In this document: positions 1,899 to 55,026 of the stretch, piece after piece | How positions within the stretch are numbered: the first letter of the stretch is position 1 | Layout: each line of letters starts with the position of its first letter | Assembly: GCF_024345535.1 (NCBI RefSeq) | Contig: NZ_JAGQBH010000006.1 | Location: 1 to 64,000, forward strand | Direction of reading: 5' to 3' | Length of the DNA: 64,000 nucleotides | Source of the DNA: Cyanobium sp. N.Huapi 1H5 | Lineage (GTDB): Bacteria; Cyanobacteriota; Cyanobacteriia; PCC-6307; Cyanobiaceae | Notes under the pieces: generated by a model | What the model was told of the DNA's origin: nothing | Database searches by the model: none | The model's input: the letters and a program-made list of their open reading frames with translations, nothing else | Position numbers and translations under genes: made by a program

Positions 1899-4853
1899 TC
1901 AGCCGAATCGGCTGCGGAAGCGGCGGACCAGGGCGTTCATGGCCAGCAGCAGCAGCCCCACGCCCACGAACACCAGACCCCGCAGGCCCAGGTCGGCCTG
2001 GGCCATGTCGATGGCCAGCAGTCGCAGCAGGCAGGCCCCCAGCCCCACCAGGGCCACCCGGCGGAACTGGGGCTCCCGCAGCACCACCCCCAGCAGGTAG
2101 ACGGCGAGGGCCTCCGCCGTCCAGAGCAGGGTCAGCAGGGCCCGGTCGTAGCCGCTGGCCAGCACGACGGCCACGGCGATGAACAGGGGGTGGCCAAGCC
2201 AGAGGTTGCGCCGGCGCGCCACCCGCCCGCCGACCCAGGCCAGGGGCGGCCATCCGCCCGGATCGGCCAGCCGTTCGAGGTCGAGCCAGCGGCGGCAGGC
2301 CAGGACGAAGGCCGTCTGCAGGCCGATCGCCACCAGCCCAGCGGTCTGGGCCGCTCCGGTGGCGGCGGGGAAAGACGGCAGGCCGATGCTGAGGCCGACC
2401 AGCAGCGACCCCACCGCCAGCCAGTAGACGATCACCCCGTAGACCTGCAGGCGGACGGCGAAACGCCGCACCAGGGCCGGCCAGACCAGGAGCAGGGCCA
2501 GCAGCGTCCAGGCGACGGGGCGCCAGGGGACGCTGATCTCCCCCTGCAGCAGCACCATCACCCCCAGCAGGGAGCCCTCGAGGAAGCAGGGCTGCACCGC
2601 CTTCCAGCTGGGCAGCCGCGCCAGGTCAGGTCCGGCCCGGAAGAACCAGCCGTGGAGGCCGACGGCGATCGCCAGCAGCTCGATCAGCAGGCGGCCGCGC
2701 ACCTGCAGGACGCCGAGCGTCACCAGCTCCTGGCTGGGTCCGATCACCACCAGGAAGGAGACGCCGAAGGCGGCCAGGTAGGCCAGGGAAAGCCCCAGGG
2801 CCACCCGCACGGCGCCGCCCCGCAGCCAGCGGGTCCCGGCCAGTGCCGCGGCAGAGAGCAGCAGCCAGGCCGCCCCCGGCAGCAGCGGCGAGATCGGCTC
2901 GAGCAGCCACAGCACGCCCAGGCCCGCATCGACGCCCAGCAACGCCAGCCCGAGGCCCTGCCGGCGGCCGCCGCCGCCACAGGCCGACAGCACCAGGGCC
3001 AGGACCGTCAGGGGGAGCAGGCGGGCCAGCAGGTGCAGCGGCGGCCAGGGTGCCTGGGCCAGCAGGGTCAGCCAGCCGGCCGCATGGGCCAGGGCGATCG
3101 ACACGGTGATGCCGTTCAGCAGACCGGGAGGGCGCCAGCGGCGCGCCGCCACCAGGACGGCGCCCATCACCACCAGGCTCAGGGGCGAACGCCAGTCCTC
3201 CGGCACCACAAGGGCGGTGCCGACGGCGACCAGGCCAGCGGCCAGCCAGCCCAGCAGGGGCGGCAGGGGCAGCGGCACACCGCGGCGCTGCAGCAGCACC
3301 TGCATCGCCGCCGTCAGACCCGCCCCGACCGTCAGCACCGCCCCGGTCTGCAGCTGATGCACCGGGTCGCCCCGCAGCAGCGCGGCCCCAAGGCCGCTCA
3401 GAACCAGCACGACCCCGGCGGCGACGCTGAGCCACCAGCCGACGCGACGGAGCGGTCCGGAGCCCTCCCGCACGGCGAGGGTCAGGAACAGCAGCGACTC
3501 AAGCAGCACCACCCCGGCCAGCAGCGGCCCGTCGGCGATCAGCGGGGCCAGGCTCAGCAGGGCCGCGAGCACCAGGGTCTGGCCCACCAGGCCATCACCC
3601 AGGGCCAGCCAGCGCGGCCCCGCTCGCCGGGCCCCCTGTCCCAGCAGCAGCGCCGCCGCGGCGGCGACCGCCAGGGCCCCGGCGCGGACGGCCGCCACAG
3701 GGGGGTAGAGCAGCAGGGCCAGAGCGAGACCACCCCACTGGCTGAGCAGCAGGGCCGCCGGCACGGCCTGCAGCCGGGGAGGCGCGGCCCCCTGGCGGTG
3801 CAGCCGCAGCAGCCCCGGGCCGAACACCAGCACCGCCGCCAGGACCGCTCCGCCGACCAGGGCGGGGGAGGTGGCCAGGCTGGGGCCGTTGCGCAGGAAC
3901 CAGGCCAGCTGGAAGGCGCCGAACACCCAGCTGACCACGAGGCGGTGCCGCGGCCAGCGGTGCCGCAGGGGCAGCTCCGAGCCCACCAGGGCAATGGCGG
4001 CGGCGATGGCCAGGGCCGGGCCGCCCTGGGGACCGATGGCCAGGGGCACCAGGCTCACCGCCACGTGCAGGGAGGCCATCGCGGCGGTGCGGGCGATGGC
4101 GGCCAGGGCCAGGTTGGCGGCCACCCCCACGGCCAGCAGGGCCAGGGCCGGAGCCGGCTCCTCGATCCACTGGAGGCCGAGCTGGGGCAGGCCGCCGGCG
4201 GCGGCGCAGGCGAACAGGACCAGGGCGCCGCCACCGCTGCGCATGGCATCGGTGAGGTCGCGCCAGCGCGGGCGCCGGCCCCACAGCAAGGACGGCAGGG
4301 CCAGGGCCCCGCCCGCCAGCAGGGTGAGCAGGAACCGCTCGCGGGGCCCCAGCTGCAGGCCCGCGTTGATCGTCAGGAAGGTGACTCCAGCCACCACGAC
4401 GAGCACGCCGAGCAGGCCGCTCCAGTTCTCCACCAGCAGCCGCTCGATCCGCTTCCAGGGCCCGCCCGTTGCCCCGCTGGACGGGGGGGTACGGGGGGAC
4501 GCGGGGGGCGCCGGGGGGCGCAGCGTGGGGGTGGTCACCGGCGCTGCCATTACCGCCGCCACCGCAGGTTGGGCCTGGGGTTGGGATCTGGCTTCGGCTT
4601 CGGCTGCAGCTTCGACCGCGGGCGCCGGCAGGGGGAGCTCCTCAGCGGCGGCGAGCCGGGCCGGTTCGGGTGCGGTGTCCCCATCGAGCCGCTTCTGGAG
4701 CACCTCGCTCCACAGCGACAGGGCGAAGAAGCGCTCGCTCAGGGAGGCGGCCTGTTGCTCGAGGCGCCGGACCCGCCGCTCCAGGGCGCGGACCTGCAGG
4801 ACCCAACCCGCCACCAGCAAGGGCAGGAGGATCACCAGCAGGGCCTCGTTCAA
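1899..4853 (-). CDS. DUF2339 multi-pass membrane protein
   Basis: A 984-residue protein of the DUF2339 family (COG5373, function unknown). It opens with one membrane anchor (residues about 5-22), followed by a charged coiled-coil stretch (RALERRVRRLEQQAASLSERF). A Pro/Ala-rich linker to about residue 125 precedes more than twenty hydrophobic helices that fill the rest. This architecture, an N-terminal coiled coil plus a giant polytopic region, is characteristic of the family. The long plus-strand open frames over this interval are shadows produced by high GC. It lies 44 bp downstream of the ABC1 kinase gene on the same strand, so co-transcription is possible. Confidence 0.85.
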   Translation of the reverse strand: MNEALLVILLPLLVAGWVLQVRALERRVRRLEQQAASLSERFFALSLWSEVLQKRLDGDTAPEPARLAAAEELPLPAPAVEAAAEAEARSQPQAQPAVAAVMAAPVTTPTLRPPAPPASPRTPPSSGATGGPWKRIERLLVENWSGLLGVLVVVAGVTFLTINAGLQLGPRERFLLTLLAGGALALPSLLWGRRPRWRDLTDAMRSGGGALVLFACAAAGGLPQLGLQWIEEPAPALALLAVGVAANLALAAIARTAAMASLHVAVSLVPLAIGPQGGPALAIAAAIALVGSELPLRHRWPRHRLVVSWVFGAFQLAWFLRNGPSLATSPALVGGAVLAAVLVFGPGLLRLHRQGAAPPRLQAVPAALLLSQWGGLALALLLYPPVAAVRAGALAVAAAAALLLGQGARRAGPRWLALGDGLVGQTLVLAALLSLAPLIADGPLLAGVVLLESLLFLTLAVREGSGPLRRVGWWLSVAAGVVLVLSGLGAALLRGDPVHQLQTGAVLTVGAGLTAAMQVLLQRRGVPLPLPPLLGWLAAGLVAVGTALVVPEDWRSPLSLVVMGAVLVAARRWRPPGLLNGITVSIALAHAAGWLTLLAQAPWPPLHLLARLLPLTVLALVLSACGGGGRRQGLGLALLGVDAGLGVLWLLEPISPLLPGAAWLLLSAAALAGTRWLRGGAVRVALGLSLAYLAAFGVSFLVVIGPSQELVTLGVLQVRGRLLIELLAIAVGLHGWFFRAGPDLARLPSWKAVQPCFLEGSLLGVMVLLQGEISVPWRPVAWTLLALLLVWPALVRRFAVRLQVYGVIVYWLAVGSLLVGLSIGLPSFPAATGAAQTAGLVAIGLQTAFVLACRRWLDLERLADPGGWPPLAWVGGRVARRRNLWLGHPLFIAVAVVLASGYDRALLTLLWTAEALAVYLLGVVLREPQFRRVALVGLGACLLRLLAIDMAQADLGLRGLVFVGVGLLLLAMNALVRRFRSRFG

Positions 4854-45352: not shown

Positions 45353-45456
45353 CGACCGTTGGCCAGGCCTTCCTGGAACGATGGCCGTGGATTGAAACTT
45401 TCACCCCTTTGCGCAGATAGGGCTCAGTTCCTGTTGGGTGGATCGGGGAAAGTCAA

Positions 45457-45502
45457 TCGGGGCGACAGGATTCGAACCTGCGACCTAGTGCTCCCAAAGC
45501 AC
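45457..45502. repeat. attL: displaced 3' part of tRNA-Pro
   Basis: 46 bp identical to 54953-54998, containing the T-arm, variable loop and anticodon arm from tRNA position 29, but not the D-arm or 5' acceptor strand. It cannot encode a tRNA by itself. It marks the left boundary. The first base outside (45456) already differs from the other copy. Confidence 0.9.
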
Positions 45503-45626: not shown

Positions 45627-45709
45627 AATCTCTCCCCAGATCTCTCCCATGCCCCGCCCCAGTGCCTGGGTAGCCGTCCTCAGGGCTGGTCTCTCCCACA
45701 GCCTCTCCC
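45627..45709. repeat. Left cluster of ATCTCTCCC arm-type repeats
   Basis: AATCTCTCCC (45627), GATCTCTCCC (45639), GGTCTCTCCC (45688) and GCCTCTCCC (45701) occur in the same orientation at the start of the integrase gene. The first two are 12 bp apart. The same two decamers recur with the same 12-bp spacing just inside the right end (54901-54922). Matching clusters near both att cores are the expected layout of integrase arm-binding sites; that role is inferred. Confidence 0.6.
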
Positions 45710-46899
45710 AGGAGGGGTGCCGGACCGGAATCACCGTCAACGAAAAGCGCGGCCGCGCCCGGGTGAACATCTCCGAGGCCCTCGGTGGTGGCCGCCGCCG
45801 CCAGGTGCCCCTCCCCATCGAATGGTCGCCGGAGAACGTTGACGCGATCCGCGAGGCCGCGCTGGTGATCTATCGCACCCTCGCCCAGGGCCAGCCGGTG
45901 GCGGCCGCCGTCGCTGCCCTCACCACCACCGCCAACGACGACACCCGCCCCGCCGGTGCGATCGACTGGCCGGCGCTGGGGGAAGCGTTCAAGCAGCGGA
46001 AGCTGAGCAGCGGCCAGACGAAGGCCACCACCTGGGCGAACGTCTACGCCCGCCGGCAGCGGGCGATCCTCGCCGCGGCCGATCGCGCCGCCTCGCCGGT
46101 GCAACTGCTGGAGGCCGTCACCGCGCCATGGGCGGATCAGCCCGGCTGCCGGGGCCGCCAGCTGCTGGTCCAGCAGACCGCCGCCCTGCTGCGCTTCGGG
46201 GTGGACAGCGGCCGGCTGCCGACCGACTGGGCGCCGCCCCTCGACCTCTCCCCCTACGTGGGCCGGAAGCGTGGTGCCGCGCCCATCACCACCCCCATGG
46301 CCGTGCCCGACATCGTGGCCCTGGTTGAGGCGATGCCCGATCCCCGCTGGCGACTGGCACTGCAGCTGGTGGCCGCCTACGGCCTGCGGCCCGAGGAGCT
46401 CCAGCACCTGGAACTGCGCGGCGGCCGGCTCTGGTGCGCCTACCAGAAGGTGACCAGCAAGGGCCGGACGGAGCCCCGGCCGCTGCGCCTGCTGCCTTGT
46501 GACGACTGGGCCGCGGCCTGGCAACTGGAGACCACCTACCGGGCGGACCGCATGCCGCCGCTTCGGGCCGGCTACGGCGCCGAGTGCCTGGGCCTTTACG
46601 TGCGTCGCCGGGCTCTGTGGGGTGAGCTGCGCCGGCGGTACGAGGCCCAAGGGGAGAAGCTGGTCCTCTACAGCTTCCGCCACGCCTACGCCCACCGTGC
46701 GCACACGCTCTGCGCCCTTCTGCCCACGAAGTACGTGGCCGCGGCGATGGGCCACAGCCTGGAAACGCACCTGGCCGCCTACAGCAGGTGGATCGGTGAC
46801 GACGAGGTAGACGCTGCCTTCGAGCGGGCCGCGGCCGGGATAACCACTACCGCGGTGGTGGATGTTGGCGCAGTTCGCCTATCGGCACAGGATACGTGA
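45649..46899 (+). CDS. Tyrosine recombinase/integrase
   Basis: A 416-residue phage-type integrase that recombines attP with the tRNA-Pro attB site. An N-terminal arm/SAM-like core-binding region (about residues 60-200) precedes the catalytic domain. Catalytic residues: Arg247 (AYGLRPEELQHLE), Lys in KVTSKGRTEPR, YSFRHAYAHR with Arg344 and Tyr341 where the usual box II has His, His369 (MGHSLETH) and nucleophile Tyr378 (HLAAYSRWI). The start at 45649 lies within the arm-site cluster, so integrase binding could repress its own gene. It sits at the displaced-tRNA end, about 150 bp from attL. Confidence 0.93.
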   Translation: MPRPSAWVAVLRAGLSHSLSQEGCRTGITVNEKRGRARVNISEALGGGRRRQVPLPIEWSPENVDAIREAALVIYRTLAQGQPVAAAVAALTTTANDDTRPAGAIDWPALGEAFKQRKLSSGQTKATTWANVYARRQRAILAAADRAASPVQLLEAVTAPWADQPGCRGRQLLVQQTAALLRFGVDSGRLPTDWAPPLDLSPYVGRKRGAAPITTPMAVPDIVALVEAMPDPRWRLALQLVAAYGLRPEELQHLELRGGRLWCAYQKVTSKGRTEPRPLRLLPCDDWAAAWQLETTYRADRMPPLRAGYGAECLGLYVRRRALWGELRRRYEAQGEKLVLYSFRHAYAHRAHTLCALLPTKYVAAAMGHSLETHLAAYSRWIGDDEVDAAFERAAAGITTTAVVDVGAVRLSAQDT

Positions 46900-47051
46900 A
46901 ACTAACTGCCCCGCAGTTGGTTTAGCAAACGCTCAGAGATACGGAAGGGGTTGGCTACTGCCAGGCGGGGCGTTTCTCGTTGCAGGGGGCCAAACCCAGG
47001 TAATGCTGTGTGTGCCAGAGAAACGCTGGCAGCCCGAAACCATTTACCACC
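46900..47051 (+). promoter_or_regulatory. Control region before the HTH gene, with nested inverted repeats
   Basis: Two structures are visible. AACTGC-CCC-GCAGTT (46904-46918) just after the integrase stop can form a short hairpin. GCGTTTCTC (46970-46978) is the exact inverse of GAGAAACGC (47018-47026), flanked by CTGCCAG (46958-46964) and its inverse CTGGCAG (47026-47032). The second pair surrounds a 39-base spacer immediately before the AlpA-like gene, suggesting an operator or leader structure for it. Confidence 0.45.
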
Positions 47052-47270
47052 ATGACCGAACAAGCGTGGTTCAGCACGCCGGAGGCCGTCGCTCGCCTTG
47101 GAATGAGTCGTGAGACTCTCCGCCAACTTCGCCTCCGAGGCGTCATCCAACCCGGCAAGCACTTCCGACGCCTTGGCTGCACTCAGGGCCGCGGCCCGAT
47201 GCAGTGGCACCTGGCCAATATCGACGCCACGGTCACCAGCTGGAGCAAGCGCAATCTCTCTGCGGTCTGA
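47052..47270 (+). CDS. AlpA/excisionase-like helix-turn-helix protein
   Basis: A 72-residue DNA-binding protein. The motif WFSTPEAVARLGMSRETLRQ, LRLRGVIQPGKHFRR is the winged-helix/MerR-like N-terminal DNA-binding pattern of AlpA and phage excisionases. The position directly after the integrase and before the replication gene suits a recombination-directionality factor or a replication regulator. A related protein is encoded on the minus strand at 52031-52282. The replication gene begins six bases after its stop. Confidence 0.75.
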   Translation: MTEQAWFSTPEAVARLGMSRETLRQLRLRGVIQPGKHFRRLGCTQGRGPMQWHLANIDATVTSWSKRNLSAV

Positions 47271-47275
47271 CCTGA

Positions 47276-49939
47276 ATGGCAGCGCAGGAAATGACCCCGC
47301 TCCCGAGCCACCGGGAGCACGACAGGTCGGACAGGCAAACACCTTCCCCTCATCCTATCGGCGATCTCCCGGCGATCTGGCGGCCGGCGCTGCTCCCCGT
47401 TGGCCGGGGCAAGTTCCCGGTGCGCCCCGGCACCGACACCGCGCTCCCCGGCTGGTCCACCCCTCGACCCGGCGGCTGGCCTGAAGCTGACCTCCACCGT
47501 TCCCCCGCTGTCGGGTTGTTGCTGGGCACCCACAGCGGCGGCACCCTCGCTGTGGACTTCGACCCGGCCGACACCGACCCGGCCGCGGCGGATCGGATCT
47601 TCCGTGAGCACTTCGGCCAGCCTCCCACCGACCTACCGCACACCCTCGCGTGGAGCAGCGGCCGCCCCGGGCGCCGACAGCTGGCCTTCCTGGTACCCCA
47701 GGACCGCTGGCCTGATCTCGACAACCGCCAGCAGGAGCTCAACGACGGCAACGGCTCGAAGGTGGAGTTTCGCTGGACTGGCCAACAATCCGTCCTGATG
47801 GGCGCCCACCCGGACACCCCCGGTTACGGCTGGGTCGATGGCTGCTCCCCCACCGAGGCCAGCCTCGCCCAGGCCCCCGCCTGGCTGCTGGACCTGATCC
47901 CCAGCAAGGCGGCACCGAGGCCGGCCGCGGCGCCCACACCGCCCACCGAGCCCCCGCCAGCTGGCGCCGTGCCCTTCCGCGACTTCCTCACCAAGGACGC
48001 CGCCGACCTGATCGACACCGGCAGCCGCCCCGGCAACAACAACACCGAGGGATGCGCCCTCGCCCTGGAGCTGGTGGCGGTTGAACGCTGGCTGAAGTCG
48101 CAAGGCGTCACCGCCGACGAATCCGCCCGCGATGCCTTCGCCCTCTACATCGCCCACAGCGATCAGCCCATCCCCCGGGCCGGCGGTCGCTTCGAACCGT
48201 TCGACACCGCGAAGGCCTGGGGGCGGTTCGACACCGCCGAGAAGAAGGACCCGACGCCTGCCACCCCTGAGGACAAGCTCCGCGACCGGCTCACCTATCA
48301 CCGCCGCGAGTTGGTCCAGCTGCCCACGGGATCCATCGACATCAGCCAGCCGACAAGGGCCAGCAGCAACGGGAAGGTGCCCGATGAGGCCACCAGTTGC
48401 GGCAGCAAGTCTGTACCGCCACGGGAGGAGCGGAAGCGGAAGGATCGCAAGCCGACCAACCTCAGCCTCTCCCGTCGGCTGGAGTGCTTTCGCCACTGCT
48501 GCGCAGCCCTAGTCTCCACCGAGCGCAACAGCCTTCGGCGCATGGCGCGCCTCCGTCATGCCGTCGAGGCCCTCAAGCTGAAAGGCATCGTTGCTCCGAA
48601 GGAGATCGGCGCCCAGGTGCTCGAAGCGCAGGACCGCCGGGCAGGTAACTGCTTCTCCCTCCTCACCGCTCTAGAGCGGGAGCTGATGCCCAAGCCCGTC
48701 GTCCGCTGGCACGTCCCCGGATGCATCCCTGCCGGCGACCTCACCATCATCGGCGGCAGACCGAAGGTTGGGAAAACACGTTTGGCCGTTGCGGTCGCCC
48801 GTGCACTGCTACGGCAGGAGGACTTCCTGGGTTTTGGTGTTCCGCCTACTCAGCACCCCGTCATCCTTGTCAGCGACGACCAGGGCGATGCCGACACCAA
48901 TGACCAGCTGGAGAAGCTACAAATCTGGGACCATCCCCTCCTCCTCTGGGTCCGTCGCTTCCGTGTGACCGAGGACGATCTAGATCAGCTTCAAGGTGCC
49001 ATCAAGGCACATCCAGGCGCCGTGGTGATCATCGATTCCCTGCGATCCATCACCCGATCCTGTCCCTTCGGAGAGAACGATCCTGAGATCGGCGCGCTGG
49101 TCTACGACCTCAAGACAGGCGTGATGGATGCCGGCGGTTCCCTGCTCCTGATTCATCACTGCAACAAGACCGAAGCCCTCGTCGGCGTGGAGGCTCTCAG
49201 CGGGCATGGGTCGATCTCTGGCGCGGCTAACACCGTGCTCACTCTCCACTACTTGCCGGACCAGAAGGGCCACCCTTCGAAGGATCAGCCACAGCGGCGC
49301 CTAGTCCGCGAGGCCAGGACCGGCGAGGGGGTGGACCTGGTGATCAGCCCACTGGCCGGCCGCGGCGACTTCTACCGAGTCGGCACCTTCAGCGAATGGC
49401 AGCGAAGCCAGCAGCAGGCCAACGAGGAGGAGAAGGACATTGGCCGAATGAGCCAGCGGGAGAAGGATGTGATCCGGCTGCTGACTGACAACGGTGGGTG
49501 GATGAAGCGCCGGGAGGTGTGCGATGCCCTCGGCGTCATCTGGGGAGACCGAGGGAAGGATCCGGCTGCCAAGCAGATGGGGCGCACCCTCGAAAGGCTG
49601 AAACGGTTGAACTTCATCGAGTCAGACCGCCCGCAGCAGGAGACTCTCTATCGAATCCGCTCCCGTGCCCTAATGGACGGATCAGTGGCACCAGCGGGAC
49701 CAGCCAGTGATAGCAATGGATTTGACGACCCGAATTGTGTGGGGTCAGTGGGGTCAGTGGGTGACGAGCACACAAAGGGCAAGGCTGTGACCCCACTGAC
49801 CCAAAGTGGTGGGGTCAGCGAAAGCCCAGCCGCCCCCCCGCTGGCCCCGCTGGCCCCGCTGACCCCTCTGCCCACAACCAGCCCGCCCTTCCTTCCTGGG
49901 GAAGATGATCCATGGTGGCCTGCGCGCTCCAACTGCTGA
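47276..49939 (+). CDS. Replication protein: primase-polymerase fused to RepA-like ATPase
   Basis: An 887-residue protein with at least three parts. Residues about 25-210 resemble the bifunctional primase/polymerase domain: LLPVGRGKFPVRPG, the acidic metal motif LAVDFDPADTD, SSGRPGRRQLAF and KVEFRWTGQQSVLMGAHP. Residues about 480-720 are a RecA-fold ATPase of the RepA type: Walker A GRPKVGKT (494-501), Walker B VVIIDS (from 583), HHCNKT, SGAANTVLTLHY. A winged-helix-like segment follows (DVIRLLTDNGGWMKRREV). The last ~60 residues are low-complexity and coincide with iteron-like DNA repeats. It probably initiates and primes replication of the excised element. Confidence 0.85.
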   Translation: MAAQEMTPLPSHREHDRSDRQTPSPHPIGDLPAIWRPALLPVGRGKFPVRPGTDTALPGWSTPRPGGWPEADLHRSPAVGLLLGTHSGGTLAVDFDPADTDPAAADRIFREHFGQPPTDLPHTLAWSSGRPGRRQLAFLVPQDRWPDLDNRQQELNDGNGSKVEFRWTGQQSVLMGAHPDTPGYGWVDGCSPTEASLAQAPAWLLDLIPSKAAPRPAAAPTPPTEPPPAGAVPFRDFLTKDAADLIDTGSRPGNNNTEGCALALELVAVERWLKSQGVTADESARDAFALYIAHSDQPIPRAGGRFEPFDTAKAWGRFDTAEKKDPTPATPEDKLRDRLTYHRRELVQLPTGSIDISQPTRASSNGKVPDEATSCGSKSVPPREERKRKDRKPTNLSLSRRLECFRHCCAALVSTERNSLRRMARLRHAVEALKLKGIVAPKEIGAQVLEAQDRRAGNCFSLLTALERELMPKPVVRWHVPGCIPAGDLTIIGGRPKVGKTRLAVAVARALLRQEDFLGFGVPPTQHPVILVSDDQGDADTNDQLEKLQIWDHPLLLWVRRFRVTEDDLDQLQGAIKAHPGAVVIIDSLRSITRSCPFGENDPEIGALVYDLKTGVMDAGGSLLLIHHCNKTEALVGVEALSGHGSISGAANTVLTLHYLPDQKGHPSKDQPQRRLVREARTGEGVDLVISPLAGRGDFYRVGTFSEWQRSQQQANEEEKDIGRMSQREKDVIRLLTDNGGWMKRREVCDALGVIWGDRGKDPAAKQMGRTLERLKRLNFIESDRPQQETLYRIRSRALMDGSVAPAGPASDSNGFDDPNCVGSVGSVGDEHTKGKAVTPLTQSGGVSESPAAPPLAPLAPLTPLPTTSPPFLPGEDDPWWPARSNC
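49741..49866. repeat. Iteron-like GGGGTCA cluster, candidate replication origin
   Basis: Within the 3' end of the replication gene, GGGGTCA occurs directly at 49741, 49750 and 49811 and inverted (TGACCCC) at 49788 and 49860, with a near copy TGACCCA at 49797. CGCTGGCCCC/CGCTGACCCC repeats occur at 49839, 49848 and 49857. Several neighbours are spaced exactly 9 bp. The encoded tail (GSVGSVG, PLAPLAPLTPLP) is low-complexity, as if shaped by the DNA repeats. Replication proteins of satellites such as SaPIs bind iterons near their own gene; the same role is inferred here. Confidence 0.5.
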
Positions 49940-50691: not shown

Positions 50692-50843
50692 TCGAACGGT
50701 TCAGAGCACTGCCATCAGGTTACTGGCTGCGACGAAGAGCAACCACAGCGCCGAAGTGTTCGGGTCCTCCCTGTTGCCTTCGCCGTACGGGTCCACGACT
50801 CGCAGGAAATGGCGTGATAGAGCCGGCGGCGAAGGTTGCAGAA

Positions 50844-50864
50844 CCCAGTCTCTGACTGGGTTTT
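50844..50864 (+). terminator. Rho-independent terminator-like hairpin
   Basis: CCCAGTC (50844-50850) and GACTGGG (50854-50860) form a 7-bp perfect stem with a TCT loop, followed by TTTT. It would end plus-strand transcription from the replication block, or a small RNA, before the capsid block. Confidence 0.6.
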
Positions 50865-50880
50865 GGGACACAGTACCCCC

Positions 50881-50904
50881 CCCCAGCCCCAGCCCCAGCC
50901 CCAG
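50881..50904. repeat. Tandem hexamer (CCCCAG)x4
   Basis: Four exact copies of CCCCAG, preceded by a run of C residues. It lies 17 bp after the terminator-like hairpin. Probably a slippage-generated microsatellite. Confidence 0.8.
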
Positions 50905-51112
50905 CCTGGGTCCCGTTGGTTGCATTTTGGCGCAGGAGACCGCCAAAAGCCTGCAACCCTTCCCCGGGAGGGCCGTCCATCCGACTTCAGAGACGTATGA
51001 AGCTGCGGCCTAATCCTCCGACTCGCTAATCCTATGTGCCGGGGTATTGCGTGAGCTTGTTGTCAATAACTGCGCGGTTGATGCTGGACAGGCCCACAGC
51101 AACACCCCCGCC

Positions 51113-52030: not shown

Positions 52031-52282
52031 TCAGTGGCCGAGGTGAACGGCCAGGGCGAGCCGAACCGCCGGGACATTCACCACAAGTGGAGCACGCTTC
52101 GAGCGGCTGGAGCGGTAGTAGTGAACGCCGCCGCGAATGATGCCAGCGGCCCGCAGTCGCCAGAACTGGGTGCGCGAAACCCTTAACGCTTTCAGAGCGT
52201 CAGGCTGTAGCAACCACTCACTTTGGAACACCTGGGAACATGCCTGCTGTTCCGATTCTATCGGCCGTGAGAATGGCCGCAA
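52031..52282 (-). CDS. Second AlpA-like helix-turn-helix protein
   Basis: An 83-residue protein. WLLQPDALKALRVSRTQFWR, LRAAGIIRGGVHYYR aligns with the HTH protein at 47052-47270 (W-x-x-x-P-(E/D)-A-(V/L)-x-x-L-x-(M/V)-S-R then L-R-x-x-G-(V/I)-I), so the two are paralogues. It is divergent from the capsid gene with only 13 bp between the two starts. A dedicated regulator of the capsid promoter is the simplest reading; excisionase is the alternative. Confidence 0.75.
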   Translation of the reverse strand: MRPFSRPIESEQQACSQVFQSEWLLQPDALKALRVSRTQFWRLRAAGIIRGGVHYYRSSRSKRAPLVVNVPAVRLALAVHLGH

Positions 52283-52295
52283 AGGACGAGTCCTG

Positions 52296-53336
52296 ATGGC
52301 CGTTGATTCTCTGATTGCACCGCCCGCCTATTCCATGGAGGGGCTCCTTCGGTCGCTCGAAGATATCCATCACGACGGCTACGAATCGCGCATCGCTCAA
52401 ACCATGAGCGAGCACGGCCTCGACGCCCAGCACATGCCGGCCTGGAAGTACAGCCGCGCCATCGCTCTGCCGGACAACCGCCTGGTGCGGGCCCTCACCG
52501 CCACCACCAGCGGCGCCGCCGGTGCCGATGCGACCGTCGGAGCTCTGGCTGAGGTGGCCCAGGCCGCCCGACCCGCCACGGTGCTGGAGGCCCTGGGCGT
52601 CCCCCGGCGCGAGATCGGCGGTGCCGCGGCGCTGGAGTTCCCCATCGTCGACCCGTTCACTATCGGCGGGTGGCAGGGAGAGAACGTCGCCGGCCCGAAG
52701 CTCAACCCCACGATCAAGTCCGCGATGGCATCGCCCCGGATGGCGATTGCCCACGTTGAGTTCAGCCGCAACCTGCGACTGCAGGCGAACCGTGGTGAAG
52801 CGGAGCAGGACATCTTGCAGATGCTCCGTGATGCCGCCGGCGCGACCGTGGAGCGTGGGTTCCTGCAGGGCACTGGCAGCCAGAACCAGCCGGCCGGCTT
52901 GATGACGGTTCAGGGCAGGGGGTCGCGCACCTTCGCCGGTGCCACGCCGACCCGCACCGAGCTGGTGAACATGGTCACCGACTTCACCGCCCAGGAGGGG
53001 CGCATCGACAGGGCAGCCTGGTTGATGACCAGCGCCATGGCGGTGGCCCTGATGAACACCGAAGCGCCGGCAACATCCGGCCGGTACCTGCTGGAGGTAG
53101 ACGCCAACGGCACGCCCCGCGTGCTGGGCATCCGGGTGGGAGTCAGCAATCATGCCCTGGCGGGCCGGATCATGCTGTTCCAGCCGGAGAACTGCCGGAT
53201 TGTGTTCTGGGGTCCGGCATTCGCCCTGGCCGACAAGTACAGCCTCGACACCAGCGGCGGCACCCGGCTGGTCGTCTACAACACCTGCGACGTGGTGGCG
53301 ACTCTGCCCCTGCAGATCATCATCGGGGGGCAGTGA
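52296..53336 (+). CDS. HK97-fold phage major capsid protein
   Basis: A 346-residue major capsid protein. About 95 N-terminal residues lead into the HK97-type core. ATVLEALGVPRREIGGAAAL, EFPIVDPFTIGGWQGENVAG (strand before the E-loop) and GFLQGTGSQNQPAGLMTVQG (the invariant 'GTG-x-x-x-Q-P-x-G-(L/I)' turn of the P-domain) are clear. INRAAWLMTS-type A-domain strands and LLEVDANGTPRVLGIRV with the C-terminal DVVATLPLQIIIGGQ follow. AAGGA lies about 10 bases before the ATG at 52296. No portal, prohead protease or terminase gene is adjacent, which is unusual for a prophage. Confidence 0.9.
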   Translation: MAVDSLIAPPAYSMEGLLRSLEDIHHDGYESRIAQTMSEHGLDAQHMPAWKYSRAIALPDNRLVRALTATTSGAAGADATVGALAEVAQAARPATVLEALGVPRREIGGAAALEFPIVDPFTIGGWQGENVAGPKLNPTIKSAMASPRMAIAHVEFSRNLRLQANRGEAEQDILQMLRDAAGATVERGFLQGTGSQNQPAGLMTVQGRGSRTFAGATPTRTELVNMVTDFTAQEGRIDRAAWLMTSAMAVALMNTEAPATSGRYLLEVDANGTPRVLGIRVGVSNHALAGRIMLFQPENCRIVFWGPAFALADKYSLDTSGGTRLVVYNTCDVVATLPLQIIIGGQ

Positions 53337-54929: not shown

Positions 54930-54952
54930 TTTTGCGATCCCCGAAAAGTCAG

Positions 54953-54998
54953 TCGGGGCGACAGGATTCGAACCTGCGACCTAGTGCTCCCAAAGCAC
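54953..54998. repeat. attR: element-supplied 3' part of tRNA-Pro
   Basis: The 46-bp copy that completes the functional tRNA-Pro gene. The 5' 28 bases of the tRNA (54999-55026) are chromosomal, so integration preserved the tRNA. Confidence 0.9.
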
Positions 54999-55026
54999 CC
55001 GCGCTACCAAGCTGCGCCACGCCCCG
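54953..55026 (-). tRNA. tRNA-Pro (anticodon UGG)
   Basis: A complete 74-base cloverleaf: acceptor CGGGGCG with CGCCCCG plus discriminator A, D-arm GCGC/GCGC, anticodon stem GGTGC/GCACT (one G-T wobble), loop TTTGGGA with anticodon TGG, and T-arm GCAGG-TTCGAAT-CCTGT. CCA is not encoded. Its 3' part is the integration target of the element. Confidence 0.95.

Follow-up and report, generated by a model that had tools for sequence, protein, structure and literature searches.

A heptamer array in the 3' end of rep

We analysed a stretch of 64,000 nt from Cyanobium sp. N.Huapi 1H5 (contig NZ_JAGQBH010000006.1, positions 1 to 64,000; hereafter, the window). Since it contains a 54-nt direct repeat, the right copy of which overlaps a tRNA-Pro gene, we regard the DNA between the two copies as an integrated mobile element. 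The copies lie 9496 bp apart (an element of ~9.5 kb), and the genes between them are ordered int-xis-rep-capsid (Table 1). Our subject is the 3' end of rep, where an earlier note, made from the sequence alone, had described at least five GGGGTCA/TGACCCC heptamers plus near copies within 126 bp, partly at exact 9-bp spacing and in both orientations, and had taken them for the iterons of a replication origin. The description proved accurate. GGGGTCA has five exact matches, three on the plus strand (49741, 49750, and 49811) and two on the minus strand (49788 and 49860), and three one-mismatch copies on the minus strand (49797, 49842, and 49851); these eight sites include four instances of exact 9-bp spacing between same-strand neighbours.

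The array spans 49741-49866, i.e., about codons 822-864 of the 887 in rep, and the encoded protein tail is of low complexity, as the note had also stated. By our reading, the same word is translated as VGS, VTP/LTP, or GVS, depending on frame and strand context. Multiple copies of a short word at a regular pitch in the putative initiator gene, one of the marks of an iteron origin, are present. Upstream of the array, two possible outer iterons are placed much like the outer left sets of relatives, and very degenerate copies adjoin the conserved box at 49704-49723; box and neighbours may be a leftward extension of the array. No second cluster of TGGGGTCA (up to one mismatch) was found in the element, just single one-mismatch sites.

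Table 1. Features of the integrated element and of the array in rep (positions in the window).
Feature	Position	Strand	Remarks
attL, 54-nt copy of part of tRNA-Pro	45449..45502	.	direct repeat, 98% identical to 54945-54998
Integrase	45649..46899	+	phrog_1 integrase, E 8.8e-9
Excisionase-like helix-turn-helix (HTH) protein	47010..47270	+	HTH_17, E 1.4e-4, under curated cut-off; phrog_66 excisionase, E 0.0064
Rep, 887 amino acids (aa)	47276..49939	+	Prim-Pol, residues 41-203, and AAA_25, 470-633 (Pfam); winged helix, 719-801 (structure model); tail
Predicted winged-helix domain, likely iteron reader	49430..49678	+	AlphaFold2 pLDDT 87.4; residues 719-801, directly before tail
Possible outer iterons TGGCACCA, CGGGACCA	49686..49702	+	9 bp apart; by eye, 3 mismatches each; inferred
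Conserved box CCAGTGATAGCAATGGATTT, encodes SDSNG	49704..49723	+	left boxes of relatives alike; cut by eye
Iterons 1-2, TGGGGTCA twice	49740..49756	+	9-bp pitch
Iterons 3-4, inverted	49788..49804	-	9-bp pitch; second with 1 mismatch
Iteron 5, direct	49810..49817	+
Spacer of iterons 5-6, 31 bp start to start	49818..49841	-	inverted box expected here is degenerate
Iterons 6-8, inverted	49842..49867	-	9-bp pitch; as 8-mers, 2, 2, and 1 mismatches
Acidic/Trp protein tip EDDPWWPARSNC	49901..49936	+	similar tip in several relatives
HK97-type major capsid protein	52137..53336	+	PF05065, E 1.5e-16; phrog_617, E 3.5e-24
attR	54945..54998	.	overlaps tRNA-Pro(TGG), 54952-55026 (-)

Repeat density in shuffled sequences

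Over the 64 kb, GGGGTCA occurs as often as expected by chance (15 observed, 14.97 expected), and therefore its clustering is the signal to be explained. As a measure of density, we counted, per 150 bp, the pairs formed by 7-mers of the same sequence on either strand. The densest 150 bp of rep, 49721-49870, held 52 pairs, a number reached by none of 300 whole-gene synonymous-codon shuffles, which keep the protein and its codon usage (mean 10.2, max 21), and by none of 300 dinucleotide shuffles of the gene. When only the codons of the tail were shuffled, the mean was 5.85 pairs and 0/2000 reached 52. The five GGGGTCA copies compared with a mean of 0.76 in codon shuffles (0/5000), and a repeat run of the codon shuffle again gave 0/200 at the observed density.

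These 150 bp are the top peak of the window, narrowly; the runner-up, at 4001, has 50 pairs, and the raw pair score alone is therefore not unique to the array. The runner-up (4001-4150) is a GC-rich stretch within a 984-aa open reading frame (ORF) on the minus strand. Following rep, 50821-50970 is also repeat-dense, with inverted CCCAGTC/GACTGGG pieces and CCCCAG runs. The nearly equal score at 4001 is what might be said for the view that the array arose by chance or by slippage during replication of a tandem repeat rich in GC; however, the shuffles, the presence of copies on both strands, and a layout resembling that of relatives with other words leave that explanation with almost no probability. 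Chance itself was ruled out by the window shuffles together with those of the relatives described below.

Arrays in related rep genes

Matches to Rep were found in 66 of 399 genomes of the order (E 1e-10), in 11 of 42 genomes of the genus when the C-terminal half was the query (E 1e-20), and in 31 of 400 genomes of the family with a profile (E 1e-40), the element's own genome being counted each time. One relative is in Synechococcus sp. CS-1332. Among viral contigs, the rep profile detected 13 loci and the window protein alone none; a winged-helix profile or the protein of locus L099 (loci of relatives are given as L numbers) added no contigs, and a search of three further genera gave no additional places. 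Phage records gave three weak matches to the window protein and none to that of L035, and plasmid records gave four weak matches to the latter.

We scanned 30 reps with their flanks, leaving out two partial matches (L050 and L052), L002 (on the contig of L049), and the viral loci (L097 on); L019, L007, and L020 had <1000 bp of downstream sequence. The densest window exceeded all 100 dinucleotide shuffles in 16, and in 13 of these it lay no more than 500 bp from the rep stop and was, in our judgement, iteron-like. Least clear was L041, in which inspection by eye showed a GACAGAAAG-like repeat but the top word was CCTGCAG. The other three had their densest window 728-878 bp downstream (L043), 2.2 kb before the stop (L015), or in Gln/Glu-type codons (L046). 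A direct-lag scan of 34 reps gave a top lag of 9 in 15 and of 6 in 12, with ten of the lag-6 cases located at about -350 in what we read as Gln/Glu codons. Among the relatives, L099 3101-3550 is also dense in repeats (TCCGATGGA), as is L129 3581-3730 (CACCCGATCGGG), with no gene assigned to either.

Neither the repeats in the protein nor the word of the window recurs in the relatives, and an array is nonetheless present at the rep 3' end. Beside TGGGGTCA in the window, the words are TGGGTTCA (L049), TGGAATCA (L033), TGGCATCA (L034), GGACGTCT (L035), GAGTGTCA (L019), GTAGTTGA (L036), TGGTCTCA (L037), CCGGACAA (L097 and L098, nearly identical and counted once), CCGTGACA, common to L038, L039, and L099, and, read by eye, TGGCTCA (L125) and GTTGTGAC (L126). 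This amounts to about 12 words in 14 reps with this winged-helix or tail type; the word and site scan left out L100-L102, L104, L105, L107, and L109. Eleven arrays, two of them weak, are in frame (window, L033, L034, L035, L019, L036, L037, L038, L039, L099, and L125). The array of L097/L098 straddles the stop codon, with CCGGACA copies from -58 to +124, that of L049, with TGGGTTC copies, lies entirely after the stop, and that of L126, doubtful as to frame, lies 1.3 kb past the stop of the Prim-Pol ORF. The arrays are mostly at 9-bp pitch, and the same-strand 9-bp pitch was found both within and outside reading frames. In the sister reps L106 and L108, repeats of TGGATTCCC and TGGATCCCT, likewise at 9-bp pitch, directly follow the rep stop.

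Codon shuffles of the 11 in-frame arrays gave 0/200 in eight (the window and seven of ten relatives) and 1/200, 6/200, and 8/200 in L034, L039, and L037, respectively. In those eight, neither codon usage nor the composition of the peptide can account for the repeats. L125, which is a second capsid-bearing element with its TGGCTCA array in the rep tail, is among those with 0/200. The earlier note had proposed a scan of related elements for conserved heptamers, and had held that amino-acid repeats kept with different codons would speak for selection on the protein. The scan showed the opposite of the latter: 3'-end arrays persist despite divergence of the tail peptide, peptides and words both differ, the geometry is similar, and the arrays are sometimes out of frame. 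It therefore seems, from these comparisons of sequence, that selection at the rep 3' end preserves a pattern in the DNA and not in the protein.

Selection on a repetitive protein linker, with incidental DNA repeats, would fit the in-frame position of the repeats and a terminal tip that some relatives have in common, yet it is at odds with the synonymous-codon shuffles, with one word being used in three frame and strand contexts, and with arrays that run across or after stops, and we regard it as highly improbable. Repeats selected as protein were, indeed, ruled out by the codon shuffles and the arrays outside the frame. A DDPHWPAR-like acidic/Trp C-terminal tip follows the array in the window, L033, L035, L036, L038, and L126; in L033, the tip (DDPHWPPR) is out of frame at the stop and the array is intact. 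Our best reading is that the array is read through as a linker and that the tail peptide is in the main a side effect of translation of the origin, and it is possible that the acidic/Trp tip contacts a replication protein.

Geometry of the arrays

In the layouts given here, sets oriented like the first are marked + and numbers are start-to-start distances (bp); one outlying one-mismatch site each was omitted for L099 (-128), L033 (-272), and L019 (-314). L099 reads [++]31[-]15[+++]28[--]14[+]31[--] and L033 reads [+++]32[-]13[++]28[--]12[+]33[---], and L019 has the set order of these two with a centre of 95. The right half of L097 is 28, 14, 31, and the window has 38, 14, 31. The best-preserved arrays are dyad-like, at about [+++]31[-]14[++]28[--]14[+]31[---]. 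We tested this by permuting order and sign of the sites (400 permutations per array) on hand-copied lists of sites with at most one mismatch, except for two two-mismatch sites in the window, and the dyad was convincing in L019 (0/400), L033 (1/400), and L099 (2/400). L034, as we read it, shows a portion of this design in reverse orientation.

A box of ~20 bp (CCAGTGATAGCAATGGATTT in the window) occupies the left gap of the array. Boxes were delimited by eye, 11 on the left side and 8 on the right. The left ones were alike across relatives (8.82 versus 4.66 when shuffled), and the right ones, when reverse-complemented, resembled the left (mean score 6.35, versus 4.60 on the same strand and 4.27 when shuffled; 0/200).

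The predicted winged helix and its possible relation to the word

The model of the winged-helix domain has a helix at 45-59 followed by a two-strand wing. Foldseek and VIA matches listed, with VIA Z up to 11.6, were winged helices of general kinds. The 50 fold-search matches listed included MarR, ArsR, and Z-alpha and did not include P4 alpha, and a sequence-profile search of solved structures gave no replication protein at E <0.001. A joint model of the AAA and winged-helix domains was poor (pLDDT 69).

We scanned 13 column windows of the domain (500 shuffles each), and the likeness of words correlated best with that of columns 43-54, which take in the start of the helix at 45-59. A retest of the helix-3 columns, excluding L049 (domain poorly aligned, 16% to the window), L098, L125, and L126, gave r 0.47 (p 0.0037), compared with r 0.26 (p 0.073) for the whole domain and r 0.07 (p 0.33) for the AAA domain. 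Two pairs are instructive: L034 and L099 agree in 74% of the AAA domain and in 59% of the winged helix, yet in just half of helix 3 and 4/8 letters of the word; L038 and L099 have the entire word and 83% of helix 3 in common, with agreement in 42% of the winged helix. We take this as a lead, and a weak one, that recognition helix and word covary.

Other genes of the element

The integrase ORF had no Pfam match at E 0.01. Homologues of the excisionase-like protein were found in 6 of 21 relative loci and in L103, L125, L126, and L127. The capsid protein had no match in viral contigs, and of 300 genomes of the host family, the element's own among them, 8 had distant homologues of it. Next to these homologues are matches to int, xis, and rep (L125 and L126) or to int and xis (L127); in L128 and L129, there are only weak matches to rep. 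Neither a terminase nor any other head gene could be recognised in the element ORFs tested (sets of eight and seven, partly overlapping, that covered some of the ORFs), and for this reason the element may depend on a helper phage.

A candidate replication origin within rep

Taken together, the sequence comparisons make it highly probable that the array is the replication origin of this integrated, satellite-like element of 9.5 kb and would be bound by the winged helix of its own Rep. An iteron-origin role, as the earlier note had proposed, is very probably right given the codon-independent array, the 3'-end arrays of relatives, and the winged helix predicted directly before the tail; this domain is the likely reader of the array. 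Following excision of the element, several Rep molecules would bind the heptamers through their winged helices, the oppositely oriented halves of the array would position the AAA helicase to the left and to the right of the centre, and the Prim-Pol domain, judging from its family, would prime.

Several observations weigh against this reading or its extension to the relatives. In the window array itself, the outer left copies and the right box are degenerate. The array region is about 40% AT compared with 30% for the 64 kb, yet no distinct AT-rich tract was found at its centre in 40-bp bins, and GC skew, to which the earlier note had looked, showed no clear origin signal or switch. In 14 of the 30 reps scanned, the densest window was not above all shuffles (9-bp copies were still seen in some, such as L007 and L042, and nothing clear in L040, L047, and L048), and the arrays of L037 and L039 are weak (5 and 10 of 100 dinucleotide shuffles). 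In 26 longer loci, peaks of at least 25 pairs also occurred away from rep ends (max 68), at comparable height (68 pairs at L099 3101 and 45 at L129 15021), and density alone therefore does not define an origin. The dyad was suggestive in L049 (17/400), L097 (20), the window (44), L038 (48), and L036 (51), and absent in L035 (165/400), L037 (169), L034 (322), and L039 (400; three sites). The left boxes are homologous coding sequence, in which common descent would also give likeness, and cutting boxes by eye favours likeness. Finally, the helix-3 columns were chosen as the best of the scanned windows, and the helix/word correlation weakened to p 0.07 without L039 and to p 0.32 without L039 and L099.

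Rep-bound repeats often serve control too, and the array could be a Rep-bound control site (for autoregulation, handcuffing, or incompatibility), like the crr-type cis region of P4, with the true origin elsewhere in the element. Such a role, which would also suit the lack of a distinct AT-rich tract at the centre, is in our view unlikely, since the element is without a second cluster of this word and the origins of phage-inducible chromosomal islands (PICIs) and of pRN1 sit at the rep 3' end, as described in PMC6092414 and PMC4234260. Less probable still is a partition or packaging site for another protein, located in rep by happenstance. The element does carry a capsid gene, and winged-helix centromere binders exist (one Foldseek match, 4rs8); however, arrays are also present in relatives with no capsid match in the fetched flanks, and a word that differs between elements would be more in line with a reader encoded by the element itself than with the packaging enzyme of a helper.

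Comparison with known systems and implications

Iteron sequences of PICIs differ among islands. Tycheposons are tRNA-integrated recombinase elements of picocyanobacteria, and the tRNA-Pro att repeat found here is in keeping with that description. In PICIs, the origin follows rep directly on its 3' side, with an AT-rich stretch between two sets of iterons (PMC6092414). The element resembles them in the order of int, xis, and pri-rep, in its opposed iteron sets, and in having the putative origin on the 3' side of rep, and differs in that its array is within the coding region and its host is a cyanobacterium. Since no distinct AT-rich tract was found at 40-bp resolution, we do not file the element as a PICI. 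In lambda, ori lies in gene O and consists of four 19-bp iterons with an A-T-rich flank, and the helicase is recruited from the host (PMC4488673). The likeness is that of iterons within the coding region of the initiator, given the origin role proposed here; the heptamers of the window are, in contrast, at the 3' end of a gene for a Prim-Pol/AAA_25 protein, not an O-type initiator.

ORF904 of pRN1 unites primase, helicase, and a C-terminal winged helix in one protein, as Rep would, and its origin is just after the gene, on the same 3' side; however, that origin is a 100-nt stem-loop without iterons, the helicase is of SF3 type, and pRN1 is an archaeal plasmid (PMC4234260). The alpha protein of P4 resembles Rep as proposed here in that it combines recognition of repeats by a winged helix with unwinding and priming (PMC4234260). 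P4 is a different element, with a primase of Toprim type. In the Vibrio phage-inducible chromosomal island-like element (PLE), the DNA-binding domain of RepA and the origin vary jointly as a module, as they may do here, but PLE has an unrelated RepA_N initiator, three ~30-bp repeats, and an intergenic origin (PMC8263062). By analogy, our best reading is a mode of action like that of PICI and P4 origins combined with an embedding like that of lambda's. None of the literature matches listed dealt with an iteron origin located within the rep of a cyanobacterial satellite (titles and abstract openings, with many subscription papers outside the search); the separate pieces are known, and their combination, together with turnover of the word in a similar geometry, was not found among those matches.

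These observations can be extended, tentatively and at somewhat less than even probability, to a family of mobile elements in picocyanobacteria. Their origins may keep a dyad-like geometry and a 9-bp pitch through about a dozen replacements of the word, each of them matched by the recognition helix of the element's own Rep, and the origin may slide in and out of frame, such that DNA-binding specificity writes the protein tail. If true, these elements would provide, in a single architecture, a set of naturally occurring initiators each paired with its own word, from which winged-helix specificity could be decoded and in which replicon compatibility could be tested between elements in the same cyanobacteria. 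Low-complexity protein tails could then be translated origins, and there would be a simple, sequence-based way to find candidate origins of such Prim-Pol elements.

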